From NCBI GenBank assembly GCA_002946415.1, contig NJPS01000075.1:62001-126000 (forward strand): 64,000 bases of DNA, written 5' to 3'. The notes below the pieces were generated by a model. It did no database searches, was not told where the DNA came from, and saw nothing but the letters and a program-made list of their open reading frames with translations. A program made the position numbers and the translations under genes. The stretch is from Rutstroemia sp. NJR-2017a BVV2 (taxonomy: Eukaryota > Ascomycota > Leotiomycetes > Helotiales > Rutstroemiaceae). This document shows positions 3,482-51,605 of the stretch, one piece after another (within the stretch, counting starts at the first letter, position 1; each line of letters begins with the position of its first letter).

Positions 3482-6400
3482 ATGACGAGTCAAAGTCCAA
3501 TTCCCTTAGCGATCGTGGGAATAGGTTGTCGATTTCCTGGAGATGCCACAAATCCAGAGAAGCTGTGGGATGTGCTAGCAAACGGCAGGAGTACATGGAG
3601 TAAAGTACCAGCGGACAGATACAACGAAGAAGCATTTTTGCATCCTGATCCGGATGATACCAATGGCACCCATAACCACGTTGGGGGCCATTTTCTCAAA
3701 CAAGATATAGGGGAATTTGATGCCGGTTTCTTCAATATTCTGCCAGGGGAAGCTGCAGCAATGGTAGGTAATCGGGAGTAGTTCCTATCCTATTTCAATG
3801 TGTTTCTGCTCTCGAGACATGATTCATAATTTTGGAAATTTCTGATGAATATATCATCGTTTCTTCTCAGAACACTTTCGAAATAGCAAGTGCTAACTCC
3901 CATATGTCTGTAGGACCCTCAACAACGATTTTTGCTCGAGACCACTTATGAAGCTTTGGAAAGCGCGGGCATTCGCCAAGAACAAATTCACAAGTCAAAC
4001 ACGGCAGTGTATATGGCAATGTTCACCAGAGATTATGACCGGAACATATATAAGGATATGATGAGTATCCCTAAATACCATGTGACGGGGACCGGTGACG
4101 CAATTCTGGCAAACAGAATCTCACATTTGTACGACTTGAACGGGCCCTCGGTAACACTTGACACAGGATGCTCAGGAGGCATGACAGCTGTCAGTCAAGC
4201 ATGTCAGATTCTGCGTTCTGGGCAGTCGGACGTAGCTTTAGCTGGCGCCGCAAACTTGATATTGAGCCCTGATCACATGATTTCTATGAGCAACCTTCAC
4301 ATGCTCAATGCTGATGGTAGATCATATTCATTTGATAGTCGAGGCGCAGGCTATGGCCGCGGTGAAGGTGTTGCTGTGCTGGTTATTAAGCGATTGGAGG
4401 ATGCTATAAAAGCTAACGATCCAATCCGAGCCATTATCCTCGACGCGGCAATAAATCAGGACGGACACACACAGGGAATAACACTACCAAGTGGTGCGGC
4501 TCAGACTGCGCTGGAGCGCAAAGTGTGGGCAAATGTCGGCTTGCAAACGCGAGAGGTAGGATACGTTGAAGCGCACGGTACCGGAACGCTCGCGGGTGAT
4601 AGCGCAGAGCTGGACGGCATATCCAAAGTCTTTTGTCAAGATCGTGATACTCCCTTGTTCGTTGGTTCCATCAAATCGAATATTGGCCATTTAGAATCGG
4701 CATCCGGCTTGGCGGCATTGATTAAAGCAGTCTTGATTCTGGAGCATGGTGCTATCCCGCCCAATGTGAACTATGAGCATCCCAGAGCGAGTTTGAATCT
4801 CGAGCAAAAGAAAATCAAGGTCCCAACGGCCCTTTCACCCTGGTCTCAACCAGGAATTCCGAGAGTCTCGGTGAATAGTTTTGGATATGGGGTAAGCGAA
4901 ATTCCACGGGCATAACTCACTAATACTGCTGATTCATGAGTTGAGATATCGTTCTAAATGAAAATATTGAAATTTCTAGATCAAATTGTCTCTAGAAACA
5001 GATTTATATTCTCTAAAAGAAGTGTCTCACTCATGTTTCAGCTCTAGAAACACCCTAGAATAGGCAATACTGACTTTTTAACGTCGCAGGGCACCAATGC
5101 ACATGCACTTTTAGAGCAACCATCTCGGCCAACAGTGGATGCACCGGAGGATGCAACAGCAACCCAGGAAATCTCACGATTATTTATGCTGTCTGCTGCA
5201 AGCCAAAGTTCACTCTTGAACATGCTGAAAACTACTGCGGACTGGGTATCAAAGCATCCTAGCCAATCTTCACTCAGAGATCTATCCTACACGCTATGCC
5301 AGCGTCGGTCCGTTATGCAATGGCGGTTTAGTTGCGTGGCTGTTAATCAACAGGAACTTCTTGAGGCACTTGACAAAGGGTCTAAACGGACGGATGCCAT
5401 CACACGTATATCTCCAGACGTGAAAGTCACCTTTGTTTTTACAGGCCAAGGCGCTCAATGGCCAGGGATGGGTCGTGAGTTGTTTTCCGAACCAACTTTC
5501 AGAGATTCGATACACCGATCAAGGGATATTCTTCATGATCTGGGATGTTCATGGGACCTGATTGTAGAGGTCTTACGCGAAGAAAAGGAGTCTAGAATGA
5601 AGGAGGCAGAATTAGCGCAACCTGCAACAACTGCAATCCAGATTGCTTTGGTAGATCTTGTTCGCAAATGGGGAATTGTCCCTGATACAGTCGTCGGCCA
5701 CTCTAGTGGTGAGATTGGAGCCGCATATGCCGCAGGTTATCTCTCTCACTATACGGCGCTGAAGGCATCGTTTTCCCGAGGTTTCTCAGCCGCAATTTCC
5801 AAGAAGAAAGGCCTTGGGAAAGGAGGGATGCTTGCTGTTGGTGTCGGAGAGCAAGATGTTGCTAAATATCTGACATCGCTAAAACAAGGTGTCGCTGTTG
5901 TTGCTTGCCAAAACAGCCCAAGTAGTACAACAGTTTCTGGAGACGACCTCGCGCTTTTAGAACTCTCGGAAATATTGACCCAAGAGAGCATTTTCAACCG
6001 AAGACTTAACGTAGATACAGCTTATCATTCACATCACATGCAAGCAGCTGCTAGCGAGTACAAAAGTGGTTTGGGAGAGATCGAGGAGGACACTTCACCA
6101 AAAGCCACGAATATCAAGCTTTTCTCCTCCGTCACAGGCTCCCTGAAGTCAAGTGGATTTGACGCCGATTACTGGACATCAAACCTTGTCGGCAAAGTTA
6201 GGTTCTGTGATGCTTTGCAAAGCCTATGTCGAGCGGAACAGTCCTCATCACGGGGCATACAATCCCATAGGATTTTCATTGAGATAGGACCGCATGCTGC
6301 TCTTGCGGGGCCAGCTAGGCAATGCATTGCGGATTTGGCAGAACCTGTACCGTATAACTACACCTCGGTTCTCTCCCGTGGAACAGGAGCAGTCAATAGT

Positions 6401-9400
6401 GCATTGGCGATGGTTGGAAATCTCTTTGATCATGGCTATCAAGTAGACCTTGTCGCAGCCTCGGCTTCAGATCCAACATCGCAAAATGCATCAGTACTGC
6501 ACAATCTGCCCTCATACTCGTGGGATCACTCCAAAAGGCATTGGCATGAATCACGTCTCAGCCGAGATTATCGCTTGAGGAAGAATCCATACCATGACCT
6601 GCTAGGCCTTAGAATGACTGATAATACGCCTCTGCGGCCGTCATGGAGGCATATGGTGGGAGTGGAGCGTCTCCCGTGGCTCGGAGATCACGTCGTAGAC
6701 GGGCTGATGATTTTTCCAGGCGCCGGCTATCTCTGTATGGCGTTGGAAGCAGCGTTGCAATTGACCAATGATATTCATCCAGAAAAGAAAGTTCGACAGG
6801 TCGTCTTGAAAGACGTGTCATTCCTCAAAGGCCTTGTTATTCCCGAAGGCCGCGATAGGGTTGAACTTCAACTGGTTTTTAGCCCCATTGAAACGGCCGA
6901 GGGTGGCAGTACCATGCAGCATGGCTTCTCTGTTACTGCCTTTACTGGCGATGAGCAATGGACTGAGCACTGTACAGGATTGGTGGTCGTTGAGTTTGCT
7001 TCAGAGGAAGAGCAGAGTTTCTCTGGAACCCTTACAACGTACGGAGCCATGGCAGATATGCTTGATCCTGTCTCCACCAAAACCATTCAGTCTAATGAAC
7101 TCTACAAGGAGCTTGAGAGAGTCGGTAACACCTACGGCCCGACATTTAAAGGCATTGATAAGTTCTTCATGGATGCTGATCGAGCCGTGTCTCACGTCGT
7201 AATCCCTGATGTGGTGTCTGGAATGCCAGCTAATTATATACGACCGCACGTCATTCATCCTTCAACATTGGACATTATATTGCACAGTACCTTACCGCTA
7301 GTGAACCAGAAGCTCGGCGCAGGTTCGGTTATGCCAGTTCACATCGATGAAATATCAATTTCTCTTGACGTTGAGAAGACGCCCGGCAAAGAGCTCTTTG
7401 CAGTAACCACTTTAACATCAAGTCACTTCAGAGCTGCAGAAGCCGATCTTTTAGTGTTCCCTGGAACTGGTGTCCCAGCTGCGACTCCCGTCATTTCAGT
7501 TTCGGGGATGGAGTTGCGTAGTTTAGCTTCAAATCCCTTTGAAAACGAGGCTCTCCAAGACGCACGGGACATCTGCTATGAAGTAAAATGGGGCCCTGAC
7601 GAGAGCTTTCTTTCAGCATATCACCTTCAACCATCAAAAATGATATTGCCACAAGAAAAGCTCAACATCACGGATGAAGCAACGCGAGAAGTCTATGAGC
7701 CGTTCGCCGGCTGCTACACTCTGTTGTCAGAATACTTGAAGCATAAGAGCTTCAAGCAATCAGGTCTTTCCGTCATCGAGATTGGTGGTGGCACAGGAGG
7801 TGCAACCCTGCCATTTTTGGAAGCCTTGAAAGGATGCAGTGCTCTTCCTGCTGTTTATGACTTCACCACCGATATTTCCAGAGACAATTTCGAGAGTACG
7901 CGGGATAAATTACAAGACTGGTCTGGCGTAGTCAATTTCCGACCGTTGGATATTGAAAAGGATACAACAGAACAGGGCTTCGAAGAGTACTCTTATGATA
8001 TAGTTCTAGCTTGCAACACACTACATACCGCGTCGAGCATTAAGTCAGCCTTATCCAATGTGCGGAGGCTCTTGAAGCAAGATGGTGTTTTGTTATTGAT
8101 TGAGTTAACCAACCCACAACCCGGTGCAACCGAATCTTTCCTCTCCATAGAGAAGTGGTCGGATGAGATGTCTCAAGTCTCCTTGAAGATGCAGCTCGCA
8201 GCTCAGGATGACCACTCAACCCCTATATCTAGTCTGATAGTGGCAAGGGCTGTTGATGATGTCAATACTGTTGCTCTTCCTGAGATCAGACTTATCAGCG
8301 AACCTGGCTTACCTCATAGCCTAGCAAACCTCGTGGCTGGAATCTCAGGTGCCTTGGGAAGCAAGGGGCTGCAGGTTTCCACATCTTCATGGGGCAACAA
8401 GCAGCCGCATGATGATGTCATTAATATCGTGATTGATGACGGTTCCAAACCTATACTTGCAGATATAGCGGAAGATAGATTCCAGGATGTATGTAGCCTT
8501 CTGAAGAGACCTTCAAGAGTCATCTGGGTAAGCGCACAAGACAACGAAGGAGATAGGTTGAACCCCAGGAAGCACCTCATCACTGGACTGTCTCGAACAG
8601 CACACGCAGAAAATGAGGATCTTCAAATGATCACGATCGATGTGCAACAGAATATCAATCAAACGACACAACCCCGACTACTCGAGATACTGATGGAGAT
8701 CCTCGAAGGTTTCACCAGGATGGATCTTCCGAGAGAGCGGGAGTACATCTACAACGGCACCGCTGTGTTGATTCCAAGAGTCATCCCGAGTAGCACCCTC
8801 AATCGTCAGGTTTCTAGCAAAGACGAGACAATCACTGAGGTGAAGTCTTTCACAGACTCTCAATTGCCTCTAAAGCTCGATACCCAGAAGAAGGATTTCC
8901 TTAACCATCCCGTTTTCATAGAAGATGAAAGCCATCGCGTTGCTCTTGAAGAAAACTCAGTCGAGATAGATGCAAAGGCATTTGGGATCCCTTCTAAACC
9001 ATCGCAGCATAGCACCAGTGTAAATGAGTACGCGGGTGTTGTAACCGCAACCGGGTCCGGCGTATCTGATTTTAAAGTTGGTGATCGCGTTGTTGCTTTT
9101 GGAGCAGTGTCTTATGCAAACCGACTGAGGGTTCACGAGAAGCAGGTCCAGCGGTTACCAGACCGAATATCCTTCATAGCTGCCGCAGCGTTGCCAGTCT
9201 CCTTTATGACCGCTTCTCATGCACTTATTGATATTGCAGACGTACAGCCTGGGCAAGCGGTCTTGATTGATGGTGCCACGAGCAGCATCGGTCAGGCTGC
9301 CCTCGCCATAGCCAAGCACCTTGGGGCTCAAGTGATCGCTGCTGTGTCAAGAGTGGATGAGGCGACGTTCTTGATAGACACTCTCAAAACTCCATCGAGT

Positions 9401-12400
9401 CACGTGGTTCCACGTGAAAGCTACCTCTGTAAACGCCAAGTTCACAAGCTTGTTGGCCCAAAGGGACTCGATGTTGTACTTGACTGTTCGGAGTCTTCCG
9501 TCTCCAACGAGATAAAAGAAGCTCTGAAACCTTTCGGGACCATGATTCATATCCGAAGCCGTGGGAATGAACCAAAGCATCATCGAAGCGTTGCACAGGA
9601 ACAACCTCCCAACGCAACTATCTCGACCTTCGACCTCGAATCTCTCATTCATGCCAAACCACAAAAAGGTTCGAAGCTACTCAAGAAAGTCGTGGAAATG
9701 ATTGGTGAGGGAATGTCTTTGGGATTGCAAAAGATCAAAACAGTACCGATGAAGGACTACGAACAAGCGTTTAAGCTAGCTCGACAGGAGGGCATGGATA
9801 AATATGTTCTAGAAGTCGTGGAGAACTCTGTCGTGAAGGCTACCAGACCAAGCCACGTTATTCCAAAACTCGAAAGTGATGCCACTTATGTCGTCGCCGG
9901 TGGCTTAGGAGATGTTGGTAAAAGACTCCTGCGACTGATGGCGAAAGCTGGTGCGAGATATCTGGTGACGCTCTCAAGAAGTGGGTCAAGTTCTCCTGCC
10001 CATCAGGAGTTTGAAAAGGAACTTCAAGATCTTAGTGCAGGATGCATATTGCACAGTTTAAAATGCGATGTCGCCATTGAGGCTAGTACCCGAGCCGCAC
10101 TTTCTGAAATCAAAGCAAAGGGTTTGCCTCCAATCAAAGGTGTCATCCAGGCAACTGTCGCACTCAGGGACTCGACGCTTGACACTATGACTGCCGAAGT
10201 ATTCAATAGCGTGCTACAGGCCAAGTCTCATGGTACCTTGAATCTACACAAGGTTTTTGCAGCTGAAGATTTGACATTCTTCACCTCATTCTCATCTGTT
10301 GTAAATGTCATTGGCACAAGTGGACAAGCCAACTACAATGCAGGAAACTCTGTCCAGGATGCGCTTGCACAATTTGAGAGATCTTCAAACTGCTTCTATA
10401 TGTCACTCAATATCGGTACGATTGAAGACGCTACCGTCAACAATGATGCGATAGTGAATTCCCTTCGCCGACAAGGCTTGACTCCGGTTAAGCCTGAGGA
10501 ATTGCTGGCATATTTCCAGTACGCCTTGAGCACTGAGGCACGCGAAGCAGGATCCCACCAAATTGTAATAGGTTTCACTCCCAAGACTCTGGCTGGGACA
10601 ACTGCTATTAACGGGACCCCTAATACACCAATGTTTACACATGTTCGTCAAGCAGCAGATAAGAAGAGCGATAGTGTTATGCAGACAAAGACTTTCAAAG
10701 ATATCGTCATAGAGGCAAAAGATCAAGACGAAATCTCGCAGTTCGTTGCTCAAGTCATAGGGAAGAGGCTCGCAGACCTAGTCGCTATCGATGCTTCTGA
10801 AGTGAGTCTAAGTTCCTCGATTGTGGACTTTGGCCTTGATTCACTAATCGCTATCGAACTTCGAAATTGGATCATGAGAGAGTTTGACGCTCCTATTCAA
10901 TCCTCTGAGGTTCTTGACAGTCAAGATATATGGTCCTTGGCGCAGAAGGTGACTTCGCGCTCACGCCTCGCGAATGGGGATAACACAGAAACGAGCAGCA
11001 GCAGTGACCCAATGCAAGCATCCACGCTACCAACATCAAGATCGCGTTCTCTAGAGTCACAAAAGAGAATTGCTGAGCTACTCCCTCTGCCGGTGCCAGA
11101 CCTCGCAGATACTCTCCGCAAGTTTGTTGACTCACGGAAAGCATTTGCCTCGCCGGAAGAATTGGAAGAGACTGAGCGTGCTGTTGAAGATTTCCAACGG
11201 TCAGGCTTGGAGCTGCAACAAGCCCTTCAAACAGATCCATCTGGACAAGATTCGAGACTGGAGTTCTATAACAAAAACATCCACCTTGAGCGCCGCGAGG
11301 CTCTTCAAGACCACGCTCTCTTTTATCTAGGACATTTAACAGATGACGCTCCGTCACACAGCCAGGCTGAGCGGGCGGCGATCATCACAATTGCTGCGCT
11401 TGCATTCAAGAAGCGCCTTGAAAATGGAGTCCTTGAGCAGCATATGCTGAATGATACCCCGCTGTGCATGGAGACCTCAAAGTGGTTGTTCCATGCATGC
11501 CAGGAGCCAGGAAAAGGATTGGATCACATGCGAAAGTACTCTTCGAGTAATCACGTAGTGGTGATGCGACGAGGTCATATGTACCAAGTTGACGTACGGG
11601 AAGAAGATGGCTTCGCATCGCTCACAGCCCTATTCAACGACCTCATTGCATCCTCAGAACATGCTTTGCCACCCGTCTCTGTTTTGACCACCAAGGGGCG
11701 AGATGACTGGGCTGAATTGCGATTTGAACTGAAAGAAGTCGATTCTAATGGTGCGACCCTTGAGGCTGTCGAGTCTGCTGCGTTTGTTGTCTGCCTTGAC
11801 GAAAGTGCGCCCGTCACTCCCTCGGAACGCTGCACTGCCATCCTTGTCAATGATTGCCATCTCACAAACCGCTGGTTAGACAAGACAGTTCAGTTCACCA
11901 TTGCTACCAATGGCGTTTCCGCCATTCTTGCGGAAAACGGAAGTCTTGATGGATTGAGCACAAGGCAACTGCACGAGTACATCACAGACGAAATTTTCGA
12001 GCATAGAAGCTTCACCCCACTGACAGAACAGCCTGTTCCTACCTCAACAGTGCGGGAGCTCGCCTTCGAAATTCCATCCACCATTGCAAAGCGCATCGAA
12101 GAACAGAGAGCTTACAATTTGGCTTATTACAAGCCCATCGGAGCGACCCGTGACCACTTCTCTGCGCTTAGACGGTCCTATCTTGGAAGCAAACGCCTGC
12201 GTTCTAAGGGTACGGTCCTATTGTCCATTCTGTTTGCTACACGTTTGTTCTACGGCTTCTTCGAGCCAGTTTGGGAGACTGTAACGATAGCCAAGTATGC
12301 CAAGGGCCGGATTGACTGGTTGCAAAGCTTGACACCTGATATCGCACTCTGGATTGATGAAGCTATAAAATTCATGGAAAGCGGAGAGGGGGACACAGTG

Positions 12401-12808
12401 GATCTGCTACGCAAGCTGAGGGAAGCCGCGGCTGGCCACGCTCAGGCGCTAAGACAGGTTGCAGACGGTCACGGATATGTCGAGCCTCTCTACTCACTCA
12501 TGGGTGCTGCGCTGGCAGAGGGGAAAGAGCTCCCGGCGCTGTTTAGTTCTACTGCGTGGCAGCACTGTGACCGCCATGCCACGCCGAAAAGGGCGAAGTC
12601 GGACTGTCTAGGGTCAGGCGGCTATCTTCGACTGCAAGAGGGAGGATTTTTAATGCCAAATCCAAACAGTGTGTTCGTTCATTATGAGGTTCACCATGCG
12701 GATCCATTGATATTGGTGCAAGGCAGAGAGGAAGACGTCGCCAAGTTTGAAGGCTGTCTCAATCGCGCGATCAAAACAATGCACGCGATTATTGAGAGTG
12801 GAAGTTAG
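3482..12808 (+). CDS. Highly reducing polyketide synthase with C-terminal carnitine-acyltransferase-like domain
   Basis: Exons 3482-3763, 3914-4891 and 5090-12808 give 2992 aa; both introns fall inside conserved KS motifs (AAAM|DPQQR and FGYG|GTNAH). Order with rough residues: KS 5-430 (active Cys in DTGCSGG, His in EAHGTGT and NIGHLE); AT with GHSSG near 623; DH with HVVDGLMIFP near 951; C-MeT with EIGGGTGG near 1319; ER-like 1726-2000; KR with GGLGDVG near 2022; ACP with GLDSL near 2336; then a choline/carnitine acyltransferase-like domain 2404-2990. In known fungal relatives this last domain moves the chain onto an alcohol or thiol acceptor. Oddities: the acyltransferase motif EHxxxDG reads ENGSLDG, so the catalytic His is Asn; the C-MeT lacks its usual N-terminal lid and C-terminal region; the ER lacks the NFRD segment and a normal Gly-rich NADPH loop. 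The frame is fully open over 7.7 kb, so the gene looks selected. The product is unknown. Confidence 0.93.
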
Positions 12809-13441: not shown

Positions 13442-16198
13442 ATATAATTGACAACCACAAAAGTTGGCTCGAGCGACTATATAGTGTTCCTCGCCGATTT
13501 AGGAAAGTCGCTTCTAGCCGAGCCATCTGAATTCGTATTTGAATTGGTCAAGGAGTGGGTGCAACAAACCAAGAATTTACTCTGGATAACGCTGGAAGAT
13601 GTCACAGCTGAGGGCTCGAAGACCATTCCATATTGCACTCCATATTGCTTTTCCGGCCTAAAAGATGGGTTACTTCGCACAATTCGATCCGAATTTACAA
13701 ACAAAAAGATTATCTCTCTTTCTATCGAAGGCGAAACGAAAAATGTAGCTAGCTATGTCAATCAGATATGCAAGGTATTTCACTCGGCATTTTGGACCAA
13801 GTTATATGACCTTGAGTACTGGGTATGCGACAGGCAGATACTCACTGCTAGGCTAAAAGAGGATACTACGAGAAACACGGAACTGGCCTCATCTATCTAC
13901 ACCTCAATCAAAACAGAATCTTGGCTGCCAGGCCCTCCTTTGAAACTTGATATGGGATCTCGTGGGGAGATTGAGACGCTCTGCTTCAACGAAGATAGTT
14001 CATACTATTACGATTTGGACGCTGACGAGATTGAAATCGAGACAAGAGCTTGGGCATTGAACTTTCGCGACTTATTCGGCGCTTTGGGGCGACTAGATGA
14101 AGACTTCAGATTCGGATCAGACTGTGCTGGTGTTGTGACGAGGGTAGGAACTCAGGTTAAGTCGATACGACCAGGAGATCGTGTTTGCATGTGGCTTTTA
14201 GGCTGTATGCAGACCTACGCTCGAGGACGAGAATGGAGAGCTGTCAAAATCCCAAGCTCTCTTTCTTTTGAAGAGGCTTGCGCCCTGATGAATCCAAGCG
14301 CGACTTCGTGGCAATGTCTCGTCGAAGTTGCGCGATTGAAGAAGGGTGAGAAGGTATTGATTCATTCTGGGGCTGGAGCAACAGGCCAACTTGCTGTACA
14401 GATTGCGCAAATGGTAGGTGCAGAGGTCTTTGCAACTGTTGGGGATGACCATAAAAAGCAACTTCTTATCGCACAGTACAAAATTCCAACGGAGAATATC
14501 TTCTATAGTCGAAACACCACGTTTGCTAAGGGTATCATGAGAGTTACTAATGGCATTGGAGTCGACGTTATTTTAAACTCGCTAGTGGGCGAGGGTCTAC
14601 GTGCATCATGGGAGTACATTGCTCCCCATGGACGGTTTATTGAGATGGGAAAGGCAGATATCAATGCGAACTCCTCATTACCCATGTCATCCCTTGCTAA
14701 GAATGTCAGCTTTGCTGCTGTCGACCTCCGCTCCATTCTCGAACACGAAGAAGAGATAGCAAGTGCATTGTTGCAAAAGACGATGGAGCTGGCCAGAGGT
14801 GGTCTTGTCCATCATCCAAAACCATTACATGTCTACGAAGTTGGTGCTGTCGAGAATGCTTTTCGGTATTTACAGAGCGGAAAGAACACAGGGCGGATTG
14901 TCATACGAGTAGATCCGTCCATGAAAGTTCAGGTATGTAAATCTGAAGAAGGGTATAGACTGGCAATGGCGCAGAATTGACGATCTTAGAAACAACTGAT
15001 CCACCATAGAATATGGAGATTCAATGAGAATGCTTCATACCTCATTGCTGGCGGTCTCGGTGGCATCGGGCGTTCAATGCTCCAATGGATGGCGAGTAAA
15101 GGCGCCAAATACCTAATCGTACCTTCAAGATCAGGAATGGAATCTGAAGCAGCTGTGCAGGTTGTTCGCGAGCTCTCCCAACAAGGAGTAACTGTAGTAA
15201 CGCCACAGTGTGATGTGTCCTCGCTGGAATCACTTTCAAGAACGCTTCATGAATGTGGGAGAACGATGCCACCGGTGCAAGGGTGTATTAATGCGGCAAT
15301 GGTTCTTCAGGTAAGGCTCTTTTGACCTTCATGCCAAGTACTTAGCTCCTAACGTGTTTTTCCAGGATACTATCTTTGACAACATGACACTCCAGCAGTG
15401 GGAGATGACTATCCGTTCAAAGGTACCAACGTCCTGGAATCTGCACAAACTTCTTCCCAATCTGGACTTTTTCATCCTCCTCTCTTCCATTTCGGGAATT
15501 ATTGGGAATGGTGGCCAAGCAAATTATGCAGCAGGCTGTACATTTCAAGACTCTTTAGCTAGGTATCGAGCACACCACGGAGAAAGAGCCTTTTCAATTG
15601 ATCTTGGCCCCATGAATACTGTGGGTATTGTTGCCGAAACGAAATCCCTTCAACAACATTTTGAACAATCAAATGGCCTTGTTTCTGTTCAAGAAGAAGA
15701 ATTTCTGTCGCTTCTAGATATGTGCTGCGATCCGAGTCGCACTTTTGATCCTACTGCTGACACACAAATCATCATGGGCCTTTCGACGCCTGCCGACAGG
15801 CTCACTCGCGGTATTGAGGATGTGGAGTTCATGCGGCGACCGCTGTTTGCCTACTTCAAACAGCCCAACAATAAATCGCATCCTGACGGCCCAACAAATA
15901 GCATTGATGCTATATTGACCTTCGACAATCTCAGTCGGCGGAAGAGCGAGCTGCTGTAGTAGTGAAAGCACTTTCGAAAAAGCTTGCCCGAGCGTTGTCA
16001 ATAAAGCCTGAGGAAGTGGATACCAACCAACCGCTTCATATATTCGGAGTGGATTCCCTTGTTGCAGTAGAGTTACGAAATTGGATCGCAAAAGACTTTG
16101 CAGCAGATATACCAGTATTTGATATTACAGGAGGAAGAACAATTACTATGATTGGAGATTTGGTAGTAAAGAAAAGTCAAATTGTAATAAAGAGTTAA
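13442..16198 (+). pseudogene. Truncated second highly reducing PKS (PsiKR-ER-KR-ACP only)
   Basis: Homology begins without a start codon at the edge of the AT-rich spacer. Segments: 13448-14932 encodes the structural KR half and an ER domain (SDCAGVV, NADPH loop LIHSGAGATGQ); after an intron (14933-15009) a KR follows with AGGLGGIG and the NYAAG tyrosine; a second intron (15311-15365) precedes the rest of the KR. The frame closes at 15957 with TAG TAG, but the expected linker 'SAEERAAVVVKAL' continues in another frame into an ACP with FGVDSL (15962-16198). KS, AT, DH and C-MeT are absent. Length loss plus frameshift make this a remnant. It differs clearly from the upstream PKS in its ER (a normal loop here), so it is not a simple duplicate of that gene's 3' half. 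Residual expression as a stand-alone ER-KR fragment cannot be excluded. Confidence 0.85.
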
Positions 16199-47908: not shown

Positions 47909-50900
47909 TTAATCACCTTTTCTTTTTTCCTCATATTGAACACTAAAAACTAACCGGAGATTACCAGGATTCGAAACAAATTGATCCTTCATTTGCTCGT
48001 CCATACAATCCCCTCGGTCACCCTCAGCGAAACTAAAACTGTACTTTTTAAGGATTTTAGCAATGAGAAATCGCATGTTGTCCAACGCCAGGGCTTTACC
48101 AACGCAGCTATGGAGGCCTGTTCCGAAGGGTGACGCTGCAGAGGGGTTGAGAACCAATTCGGTCTTGGTTGTCCAGCGTTCGGGGATGAACTCTTGTGGG
48201 CGGACGAAGCATTTTGAATCTTTGAAAGGTAGTTGAAATGTCAGTATATGTAACAGCAGAAGCACTTCATATTTGTTAAGGGCTTAGATTTGTGGTCGGA
48301 ATATGATCACGAAAAAAGCAATTTGTGATACTTATGAGCGGACGCGAACTCACCTCTTGCAATACAATACTGCGGAGCCACGATGTTCGTAAATGATGGT
48401 ATGAAGACACCCGCAATAGTAACTCCACCTTTACTAGCTTGTCGAATACCTCCTGTCATTAGAGCTGGATGAAGACGCATCGACTCATCGAGCACGGCGT
48501 TTAAAAAAGGTAGAGTAGCGAGAGTCCTGCTGTCTGTACAATCGACGTCTTTCACTTCTCCGTGAAGAGTTTTGATGTATTGCGGATTCTTTGCAAGCTC
48601 AGTGAACACGGCCAAAAGACTCGTCGCTATTGGGTTACTACCAGTAAAGCCATTGTCAGTAATATGGTGAGTTATATGCAAGAGTGATGAGTTCATTACC
48701 TCCCAGCAACAATGACTAATAAACTGTCTCCGTCCAACCAAGACATGATATTCTCGTTGGATGATTCCACTTTCAAATTCCTTTTCGTCAAATAGTGGGT
48801 AAGATCCGGTTCCAGATGGTTTGAGCCTTCCTTAATCCTCTCCTGCATTTGGCGCTGACACCAGCCTATCATCTCCCACCAATCCTTGATTACATACAAC
48901 CTTGGGAGCTTAAGCCCAATTTGGATCAACCAAGGAGCAGGACTAAATGGACCCATGAGTGAAAGTGCACGTCGTAGCCTAGTAACAATTAGGTGCCAAT
49001 CCCTTTTATCTAGCATACCGAAGGGACGTCCGAACACGAAATCTCCCATGGCATCAAATGCAAACCAGTAGAGGAGACTGCGAGCATCGGACTCCCTAGC
49101 TGCATTGACATCGGCCATGATGCACTCCTCTAGCTTGTCCACATGTCGGAGAATTCGGGATTCGTATTTTTCGAGTGCTGACAATGACATCAGTAAGCAT
49201 ATTTCTGATGAGATATCCATATGTTGCCATCATCATTATCAATTCTTCTTTGACAGAGGTTAAGCTCACCGGGTTTCGAAAATCCGCGATTCCACTGACG
49301 TCGGCGCGCGCCATGAATTGATTTATCCCTTGTAGTTACGAGCGCCAGTGTGGGATAAATTATATCATACCAATCGGATTTGATGCACGTCGAACGGGGT
49401 CCATCAATTGCCATAAAAGCATCTGGGTGAAATACGGTGATCTCATTGGGACCTGTTGCTATAAGTTAGTGCATCGGAGACAGAGACTTTATTACATCGG
49501 GCTCACCTGTTCTAACGAAGTCTCCATACTTTTGATGAAGGCTGTTCAACACCTGGTGATTCTTTGAGTTTCTACATGCCCAAACATGCCAAAGCTTCGT
49601 CATTCGTGCATACCACGGTCCAGGAAATCCCGCTTTGGTAAGGGGATGAAAGAAGACGCGGTATATACCTATACTGGCGTATAGACCGGGCACATAGCCA
49701 TTCGTGATGAGTAGTAAGCGTCTCAGCAGCTCCCCCAAGTCTGTACCTTCACAATAAGTTGTTGAGATTCGGATGTAGAGATAGATTGAAACATGAGTGA
49801 TGACGATAAGTGGGGCTTGGATGTGCCACTCGCCACGGATGAAGATGGACTGATGGACTAAGACGCCAAGAAGAAATCCAATACAAAGAAAAACTCTATC
49901 ATGCATTAAAAAAAACAGTCTCCAGTCCAGATTTGGCATATGGGTGCCAATAACTGGCAAGCAGTAAAGAGTTATAGTCCAGAGACACCAGAGCCTCCAT
50001 GTATGAGCGTCCTCGTGGGGCTTCCTTTGAAGCAAAACTCGCCCTGCAACTAACAAAGCTGGCGTCATAGGAACGATAATCGCCCACATTGAAATTTTCC
50101 AGAAATAGAGACAGGTACAGGTCCAAAATAGTACAAAAATCGCAATCGAATAACGTGAAATGTTTTCCCCCATAACCAAAACTATTGTCTTCCGGCCTCG
50201 TCCTCGATCACCTTCTTGGTCCTTGAGATCTTGAACTTGCATCGTTGTCAGAATAACAGCACTTATGATGGCCACCCAGGTCAGTCCATCTGAGTTGATA
50301 GTTACTAAACCACCAAGGGCAATTCTCAGTGAGGCAGTGTTGAATAGTCCGTAGGCGATAGCAATAATAAGGTCGCGGAAGATCTCGTCTCCTCCGCGCA
50401 CATCATTATATAACCAGACAAGAATCTGAATAAACGCTCCCTCCTTCCATATACCTGCACTGGTTTAGATTAGTTTCTAATAACTGAACATCATAATCAT
50501 TCCTGCTCCCTTCAACTGCTTGAAGAACGCAAACCAAAGTAAACCAGGTTGCAATGGTTCATAAACCACTTACAAATAGTTAAACAACAGTACGATAGGT
50601 ACAGCAGCAAGAACCCCCCTACGGGTCTGCTCTGGAGTAACCTTCCCTGTCGGAATTGGACGCCACGGTTTGTTAGCTAGATCTTCGTGGACAGATTCTG
50701 GGTGTCGTTGATTGGAAAGATCGAAAACCAAGACGTTCAGCCAATTGAATGCCACAACTATGGGAAAACGTCGTAACACGTTAAGAGGATGAGTTACTGA
50801 GTCGTTGCCCAACCTGGAGCCAGCGAAAGCTCCCAGTATGCCAAAAGCTGTATTGGGGACAACGAATGTGAAGAAGTTGCTTTCTGTAAACTCCCAGGCC

Positions 50901-50968
50901 AGGTGGAGAATGAAAAAAGGTGATATGACCCATGAGTACGATATGCTAGATTTCTGAGAATGTTCCAT
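47909..50968 (-). CDS. UbiA prenyltransferase/terpene cyclase - cytochrome P450 fusion
   Basis: Six exons (50968-50574, 50459-49507, 49452-49270, 49177-48700, 48637-48354, 48219-47909) with canonical GT...AG introns sum to exactly 868 codons (867 aa). Residues 1 to about 304 are UbiA-like: motif one FNWLNVLVFDLSNQR with NKPWRPIPTG, WLYNDVRGGDE, and motif two QDLKDQEGDRGRGRKT near 209-222, plus several membrane helices. From about 305 a complete P450 follows: membrane helices, the FIRGEWHIQAP segment, HPLTKAGFPGPW near 410, a divergent I-helix (VIVAGSNPIATS; usual AGxDT), ExxR in DESMRL, FIPERW, and heme loop FGTGLHSCVG with Cys near 803. Exon 2 crosses from UbiA to P450 without a stop, so both halves lie on one polypeptide. 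UbiA relatives in fungi include membrane terpene cyclases paired with separate P450s, so the fusion probably forms and then oxidises a terpene (inferred). Confidence 0.9.
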
Positions 50969-51605
50969 GATAAGACCGCGATGATGAAGGCTTGTTCGAG
51001 AGCATGTTTTCAGTTCTTGTAAACGCACGCTACTTATACTTGCCGGTGACTTAACTCAGAGACCTGTTCTCCGTCTGCTTATCTAAATATAGATCAGGGC
51101 TTTCCGTGGTTCTTCTTCTGCGCCTGCACTTCGTATACCTTTCCTACAATCAAGTCATAGACTAAACTTCAGGACAATGTATTGCATAAGTTACATTCTT
51201 GTTTATTTCATATCTCTACTGTGTAAGGCAACGTTACCTTTTCATTTTGATGTGCAATACGCACCCTGTCAGGATGTGCAATACGCACCTTGTCAGGATG
51301 TGCAATACGTACCCTGTCAGAGTCACTAGGCTCCTTCGGGTGTTACGTCGCGCTCGTTCCCTGCAGGTACTGCTGAGGGATATTTATACAAACTAGGGTA
51401 TGTTTGGTGTATTTGGTCAAATGAAAACCCCCACAACCGTATATGGCGTAAGTTGTGCTCTGTGATTCTACGGGGTGTTATAGACGTTTTCGATAAAAAC
51501 GCAGATACTTCGTGGATTGATGCCTCAGGCGCCAACCCCAAAAGCGTTCTCTTATAGGAGAAAAAAGTGTCCCTTTCTGTAAGCATTAAAAACCACCAAT
51601 TTCGG
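50969..51605. promoter_or_regulatory. Upstream region of the UbiA-P450 gene
   Basis: About 640 bp without a supported gene. A 24-bp tandem repeat at 51249-51320 lies about 280 bp upstream of the start codon. The open frame at 51326-51586 (minus) shows no family features. Confidence 0.4.
51249..51320 (+). repeat. Three 24-bp tandem repeats
   Basis: GATGTGCAATACGCACCCTG followed by TCAG, repeated three times starting at 51249, 51273 and 51297, with one or two substitutions between units. The core GTGCAATACGCAC is a near-palindrome, which would suit a dimeric regulator. It lies in the upstream region of the UbiA-P450 gene. Confidence 0.85.

Follow-up and report, generated by a model that had tools for sequence, protein, structure and literature searches.

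The UbiA-type sesquiterpene synthases of fungi are, in the available portions of the open-access literature, separate enzymes accompanied by separate P450s, in contrast to the protein described here, which has a P450 attached and carries Glu instead of Gly in its motif I. In the available text on the tps1 cluster, P450s act on the product of the UbiA enzyme (PMC9835599, PMC11745945, PMC12299000), and the Trichoderma UbiA synthase BgtA is described there as yielding bergamotene products (PMC12299000). Fma-TC, Tps1A and Tps2A of Antrodia cinnamomea, Pb_BisA and BgtA belong, like the fusion, to the UbiA superfamily and have the motif II QDxxDxxxD; for Pb_BisA the available text gives in addition the same motif I spacing as in the fusion (N-QRHP-x-SV-x-ED; PMC11745945). 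Stand-alone P450s of Xylariales, Colletotrichum and Trichoderma (P0002, P0003, P0005 and others) have an N-terminal anchor as in the fusion and are separate proteins. A bifunctional albaflavenone monooxygenase/terpene synthase (NCBIfam NF051859), which we take to be CYP170A1, combines the synthesis of a terpene with oxidation by a P450 in a single chain, as the fusion would; CYP170A1 has one fold with two activities and is not a fusion. P0001, the counterpart of the fusion in a second genome, reached 73.5 bits against the NF051859 model at a cut-off of 700, which reflects general P450 similarity only. MpaDE is the short name of the P450-hydrolase fusion of mycophenolic acid biosynthesis. This natural fungal protein (cited in PMC4205913) is like the fusion in that a P450 is joined to an enzyme of the same pathway, and unlike it in that the partner is a hydrolase and not a membrane-bound terpene or prenyl enzyme. 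IspH-UbiA 'Rosetta stone' fusions join UbiA naturally to another isoprenoid enzyme (PMC4746011, available part); the partner is IspH and there is no P450, unlike in the fusion. An earlier note on this DNA knew of no characterised UbiA-P450 protein, and none was found in the available parts of the open-access PMC literature on these enzymes and on Rutstroemia genomes (including PMC9835599, PMC11745945, PMC12422058, PMC12387476, PMC12299000, PMC8403587 and PMC4205913). A phrase search led to two papers, one about UBIAD1 and one about the IspH-UbiA fusions.

The UbiA-P450 fusion gene is located on the minus strand, at 50968-47909, of a stretch of 64,000 nucleotides from Rutstroemia sp. NJR-2017a BVV2, the whole of which is called the window. 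It had been proposed from the letters alone that six exons join in phase to 868 codons, and the spliced model reproduced this: the six exons give 2604 nt, i.e., 868 codons including the stop codon and a protein of 867 aa, and GT..AG is present at all introns (Table 1; introns 3, 4 and 5 measure 92, 62 and 134 nt). It was also verified that exon 2 is free of stop codons from the second UbiA motif into the P450 anchor. The frame is open from motif II (50233-50207) via the junction to the FPGPW motif (from 49627), and between 50464 and 49460 the coding frame contains one stop codon, which marks the end of the open reading frame inside intron 2, versus 18 and 9 in the other frames. An acceptor of intron 1 at 50455 was rejected, since it breaks the frame, which is restored by the AG 5 nt upstream. 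An extra intron at 49370-49329 was not needed either, since the frame is open through this region and reads like P450 relatives. Both domains were recognised by Pfam, UbiA (PF01040) at residues 94-290 (E 3.6e-20, 72.8 bits versus a cut-off of 34.2) and p450 (PF00067) at residues 423-854 (E 7.5e-50, 170.5 bits versus a cut-off of 22.8). Pfam found no reductase domain in the fusion protein. About 280 bp upstream of the start codon, at 51249-51320, a 24-nt unit is present three times in tandem (96% alike).

Table 1. Features of the UbiA-P450 fusion gene, with positions in the window
Feature	Position	Strand	Remarks
Exon 1	50574..50968	(-)	UbiA half, residue 1 up to split codon 132; contains motif I; 91% identity to P0001
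Intron 1	50460..50573	(-)	114 nt, GTAAGT..CCAG
Exon 2	49507..50459	(-)	Remaining UbiA half, junction, P450 membrane anchor, FPGPW
Junction codons H305-M306	49937..49942	(-)	Usual end of stand-alone UbiA proteins; stand-alone P450s start here or shortly after
Intron 2	49453..49506	(-)	54 nt, after ...FVRTG; the frame of P0095 departs after the same FVRTG
Exon 3	49270..49452	(-)	P450; spliced model and P0001 match
Exon 4	48700..49177	(-)	P450; ends within the I-helix
Exon 5	48354..48637	(-)	P450; I-helix NPIA (671-674), ExxR 721-724 (48486-48475)
Exon 6	47909..48219	(-)	P450; PERW, haem Cys803 (48106-48104), stop codon

The genome assembly comprises 43.4 Mb in 79 contigs, and the contig with the fusion gene has a length of 352,099 bp. 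A full-length search among about 5.8 billion proteins, in which the 7992 candidates with the most shared words were scored, yielded one full-length counterpart, P0001 from Rutstroemia sp. NJR-2017a BBW (Helotiales, Rutstroemiaceae). It is annotated as one protein of 866 aa, has the same fusion with 91% identity, and exceeds the cut-offs of both Pfam families. The sole gap in the alignment is one C-terminal residue, and when P0001 was searched back against the genome of the window, each of the six exons was matched (87-91%). Because the same fusion is present in this second genome at 91% identity, an assembly or sequencing error that joined two genes is ruled out. By Pfam domains, none of the other 76 matches (75 P450s and the UbiA protein P0072) was a second UbiA-P450 protein.

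A BLAST comparison of 199 fetched rows revealed that only P0001 and one further protein, P0095, matched both halves. P0095 (462 aa; source 'lgn'; 10 member sequences; 2 contigs) is 59% identical in its UbiA half, and its tail of 184 residues matches P450 N-terminal regions at 49-55%. This P450 part is too short for the Pfam p450 model, which gave no match. The tail departs from the P450s right after ...FVRTG, the codon at which intron 2 of the fusion gene begins, and we read P0095 as a putative second fusion, represented by a genomic reading that would end at an intron of the same position. Both P0001 and P0095 read through the junction, and thus the possibility that the homologues are always two genes with a stop codon near 49940 did not materialise. 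Taken together, the spliced model, the two Pfam domains, the second genome and the divergent second form P0095 bear out the proposed intact one-polypeptide fusion, which at the level of the gene is next to certain.

With the UbiA half, a fusion-length search was performed among proteins of about 477 to 1,517 aa that share short words with it, a range outside which P0095 with its 462 aa lies. It yielded four proteins, and only P0001 among them has a p450 domain. Because this search was limited to short-word relatives of that length, there may be further UbiA-P450 fusions. Three UbiA proteins, P0198 (Rhypophila decipiens, 943 aa), P0199 and P0072, were rejected as fusions, since none of them has a p450 match. 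All three are extended at the C-terminus, and Pfam recognises no domain in these long extensions (P0198 and P0199 were scanned, while precomputed domains were used for P0072), and the tails of P0072 and P0199 look alike by eye.

The reading preferred here, with a probability of roughly 65%, is that the gene encodes a bifunctional terpene cyclase-oxidase, in which a UbiA terpene synthase and a P450 would be tethered in one protein of the ER membrane. Separate proteins are the usual state in the relatives found, as had been stated in the earlier note: the closest stand-alone P450s in the full-length search share 53-56% identity with the fusion along almost all of its P450 half, and the UbiA half alone gave 393 matches, of which most among the 120 listed have about 280-370 aa. 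These proteins allowed the junction to be placed. Stand-alone UbiA proteins end at fusion residues 305-309 in 74 of the 120 aligned rows. After the conserved Trp292 the fusion has 13 residues up to H305, and 13 is also the commonest length in UbiA proteins (36/120); 119 of the 120 rows have 11-31 residues at this point, the exception being P0095. On the other side, 35 residues precede the conserved Gly341 when counted from Met306, while the P450 rows have 20-35 residues in 60 of 75 cases (32-35 in 23 rows, 20-30 in 37 more). The junction is thus close to exact, with little or no linker. Because the 13-residue UbiA tail and the 35-residue P450 lead match the stand-alone lengths, the fusion looks like two whole proteins that have lost a stop codon and a spacer between them, and the P450 start codon has perhaps been kept. 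In keeping with this, it would have originated when a UbiA gene lost its stop codon and the spacer that separated it from a neighbouring P450 gene.

The phylogeny of the UbiA halves was used to compare the two fusions. In a tree of 54 UbiA rows the window fusion and P0001 stood apart from P0095, and the nearest rows to the UbiA half of P0095 were stand-alone proteins with 65-70% identity to it. When the three fused rows were forced together, the log-likelihood was 31.9 lower and the AU test rejected the constraint (p-AU 0.00045), in a set whose 51 stand-alone UbiA rows had been chosen by the authors from the 118 in a quick tree, after that tree had been seen. A single origin of both known fusions is thus disfavoured. 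The grouping of the window pair with Colletotrichum rows had a support of 88 in the quick tree and of 40/37 in the careful tree. The tree of the P450 N-terminal regions including P0095 is weakly resolved (7 of 63 inner branches starred); measured along its branches, P0095 was closest to the window fusion, though at a path length of 2.02, which is long, and this tree speaks weakly against separate origins. Because the UbiA tree rejects one origin of the fused halves, the fusion probably happened twice, and a comparable fusion would have arisen separately in another lineage. The alternative is one old fusion with many later splits, and two origins are simpler.

It has to be asked whether the covalent link matters to the enzymes at all. 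The fusion could be real without any channelling, i.e., a stop codon might have been lost neutrally and the two domains might work independently, and we place this somewhat short of even odds. It would agree with the predominance of stand-alone proteins in the match lists, with the fact that no linker has evolved, and with the position of the junction among the least conserved stretches: the identity between P0001 and the window fusion is 88-96% per 50 residues, but 82% at residues 300-349, which include the junction, and this block is the least conserved part except for the last 18 residues (61% in the last 18 columns). However, both genomes have retained the fusion, at 91% identity, and members of these two families are joined in identical order in a second fusion. 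Under the preferred reading of a tethered cyclase and oxidase, the direct hand-over of the terpene within the membrane that the earlier note had proposed is plausible.

The UbiA half contains motif II as QDLKDQEGD (residues 208-216), and Q208, D209, D212 and D216 were each present in 120 of 120 aligned rows. Its motif I is N86-QRHPESVHE-D96 (50713-50681). For the fungal UbiA-type terpene synthases, the available text gives QDXXDXXXD as motif II and NXXX(G/A)XXXD as motif I, and for prenyltransferases NDXXDXXXD as motif I (PMC9835599); the motif I of Pb_BisA is N95QRHPG100SVAED105 (PMC11745945, available part). In the fusion, motif II has the terpene synthase pattern, while motif I conforms neither to the cyclase pattern nor to the N-x4-G-x4-D of Pb_BisA, because Glu91 replaces Gly/Ala; N86 and D96 stand at the Pb_BisA spacing. 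The prenyltransferase pattern is absent as well, as N86 is followed by Gln and the positions +4 and +8 are Pro and His. Glu is found at position 91 in 105 of the 120 aligned rows and so characterises the family at large, and E95/D96 is found in all 120. Several UbiA relatives among the matches listed are automatically named 'fumagillin beta-trans-bergamotene synthase', and Trichoderma proteins are also among the matches listed (57%). The comparison with the fumagillin pathway that the earlier note had made was sustained at the level of the UbiA family only, and the P450 half was not linked to the fumagillin P450.

Since motif I deviates at Glu91, the UbiA half is assigned to the UbiA superfamily and not to the established terpene synthases; we lean towards a putative function like that of a terpene synthase, with the cyclase preferred. 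The half could instead be an aromatic or other prenyltransferase, the P450 then oxidising a prenylated product in the manner of a meroterpenoid enzyme. The UbiA superfamily is better known for prenyl transfer, motif I has Glu91 and an invariant E95/D96 and not the Gly/Ala of the published cyclases, and all NCBIfam matches of the UbiA half of P0001 were prenyltransferases, far below their cut-offs and from a library of bacterial and archaeal models. We nevertheless hold this to be unlikely, in view of a motif II as in the characterised UbiA-type terpene synthases, the missing NDxxDxxxD and the automatic names of the relatives. A third possibility, that the locus gives rise to two proteins, e.g., by initiation at Met306 (49939-49937), which is also present in P0001 and lies within the range of stand-alone P450 starts, or by separate transcripts, is very improbable, as there is no in-frame stop codon between the halves and almost no space for an intergenic region, P0001 is annotated as one protein, and P0095 has one open frame.

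The P450 half of the candidate cyclase-oxidase contains the ExxR motif, PERW (777-780) and the haem-binding Cys motif. Its I-helix reads AGSNPIA (48707-48628, region of residues 668-673) and has neither an acid nor a hydroxyl residue at positions 671-673 (N-P-I), so that the acid plus threonine/serine of canonical monooxygenases are lacking. These residues normally help to activate oxygen. The assertion that both halves keep their signature motifs was thus correct for UbiA motif II, ExxR, PERW and the haem Cys, and incorrect for the I-helix and for UbiA motif I. AGSEPTA was found at this site in 30 of 76 aligned P450 sequences, and 62 of the 74 scored stand-alone rows have kept an acid or hydroxyl residue at 671-673, unlike the fusion. 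The double loss was present in all 11 stand-alone rows of the fusion's clade versus 1 of the 63 other scored rows (11 short, partial, chimaeric or distant rows had been dropped from the P450 tree, and one row without the I-helix columns from the count). In a quick tree of the P450s this clade comprised 13 rows including the two fusions and had an SH-aLRT support of 96. The shared change marks the clade, and because it affects oxygen-activating residues throughout, it hints at an unusual chemistry; CYP152 and CYP74 are other P450s with such I-helix changes. An ordinary monooxygenation is less certain, because the I-helix lacks both residues.

An AlphaFold model of P0001 was used for the analysis of the architecture (pLDDT 86.9, pTM 0.71). 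A first alignment for the prediction, A1, was discarded because its P450 rows were mis-set (19-30% identity), and the smaller A2 was used. The model has long membrane-type helices, nine of them in the UbiA part and three in the anchor of the P450. Runs of at least three residues with a pLDDT under 50 were confined to residues 1-12 and to 308-310 at the junction, and 62 residues had values of 50-70. The 50 best PDB matches of the model in a Foldseek search were all P450s (TM by target length 0.72-0.83), without a UbiA fold among them. On its own the model carries no information about membrane sidedness. In other UbiA proteins the N-terminus is cytosolic. With such an N-terminus and nine helices, the UbiA C-terminus would be lumenal, where the P450 anchor begins, and the three anchor helices would bring the P450 catalytic domain back to the cytosol. 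The charges of the loops agree with this topology, as 17 Lys/Arg residues are found in seven presumed cytosolic loops versus 3 in six presumed lumenal loops. From an inside N-terminus and nine plus three helices it would follow that the UbiA motif loops and the P450 domain both face the cytosol, with the shared membrane between them.

A putative reaction sequence can be outlined on this basis. The predicted protein of the ER membrane would consist of a complete UbiA-type terpene synthase (residues 1-305) and a complete microsomal-type P450 (306-867), the latter made up of the three-helix anchor and the catalytic domain. At its Mg-binding motifs, which would face the cytosol, the UbiA half may ionise a prenyl diphosphate (probably farnesyl diphosphate), and the hydrocarbon or alcohol formed would remain in the membrane. 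The tethered P450 would then oxidise it and would draw its electrons from a reductase of the cell, as Pfam finds no reductase domain in the fusion. As a whole, this biochemical reading is likely. It is doubtful whether a more far-reaching version applies, in which the cyclase passes its volatile product through the bilayer to a covalently attached P450 without the usual oxygen-activating residues for an unusual oxidation or rearrangement, and in which the benefit of such a hand-over explains why the two genes were fused on two or more occasions.

The genomic surroundings of the unfused relatives were also compared. UbiA and P450 genes were found on contigs of identical size in 14 of the 18 species common to both match lists; this comparison used a hand table of 39 P450 and 36 UbiA species names, covering part of the rows, with the size taken as the longest contig of the 90% cluster and the UbiA side comprising the best 120 of 393 matches. 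An equal contig size is no proof of adjacency unless the contigs are short or the locus tags near; a short shared contig size was found for Hypoxylon sp. FL1857 (23,588 bp) and near locus tags for Anthostomella pinea (124130 and 124150). The search of the window's genome gave no close unfused copy, the best other UbiA match having 44% identity and the best other P450 (on contig C51) 38-49%, depending on the exon. The genome does contain a more distant UbiA-P450 tandem (L033, C3:922000-931900, at 3888-7510), with both genes on one strand and about 1 kb apart, and the I-helix of this P450 is AGSETTA. Such a tandem is an arrangement from which a UbiA-P450 fusion can arise. A UbiA paralogue is present in two parts at another locus (L035, C78:518000-527900), at about 2033-2218 and 7113-7841, i.e., about 5 kb apart; the first part is a 35% match. 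The space between the parts holds an open reading frame for a reverse transcriptase and weak matches of the zinc-knuckle and endonuclease types, and the paralogue looks interrupted by a LINE-like element. In the window's genome, contigs C25 and C74 carry two P450 matches at identical coordinates, and because of this one sequence seems to be present twice in the assembly.

In the window itself, no partner genes of a terpene cluster were recognised among the 30 open reading frames scanned, a scan in which genes with short exons can be missed, and 8 open reading frames on the right side and 2 on the left side gave no Pfam match at E 0.1. Two open reading frames on the plus strand (3914-12805) encode a highly reducing polyketide synthase whose C-terminus carries a carnitine O-acyltransferase domain. 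Just downstream of it, separate enoyl-reductase and ketoreductase open reading frames without KS or AT domains (13448-15956, plus strand) are perhaps the remnant of a second polyketide synthase. ABC-transporter pieces are found to the left of the fusion gene, at 28.5-33.2 kb.

The protein itself is already public as P0001; what is new is the recognised architecture, the close junction and the apparent recurrence. By the 'Rosetta stone' argument, the fusion suggests that this little-known UbiA family and the P450 family may act in one pathway also where they are separate, as in Colletotrichum, Trichoderma and Xylariales. Terpene cyclases and P450s are normally separate, and it is difficult to test whether a product is handed over between them within the membrane. 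The natural fusion, its stand-alone relatives and an apparently independent second fusion would together provide a matched comparison of fused and unfused enzymes.
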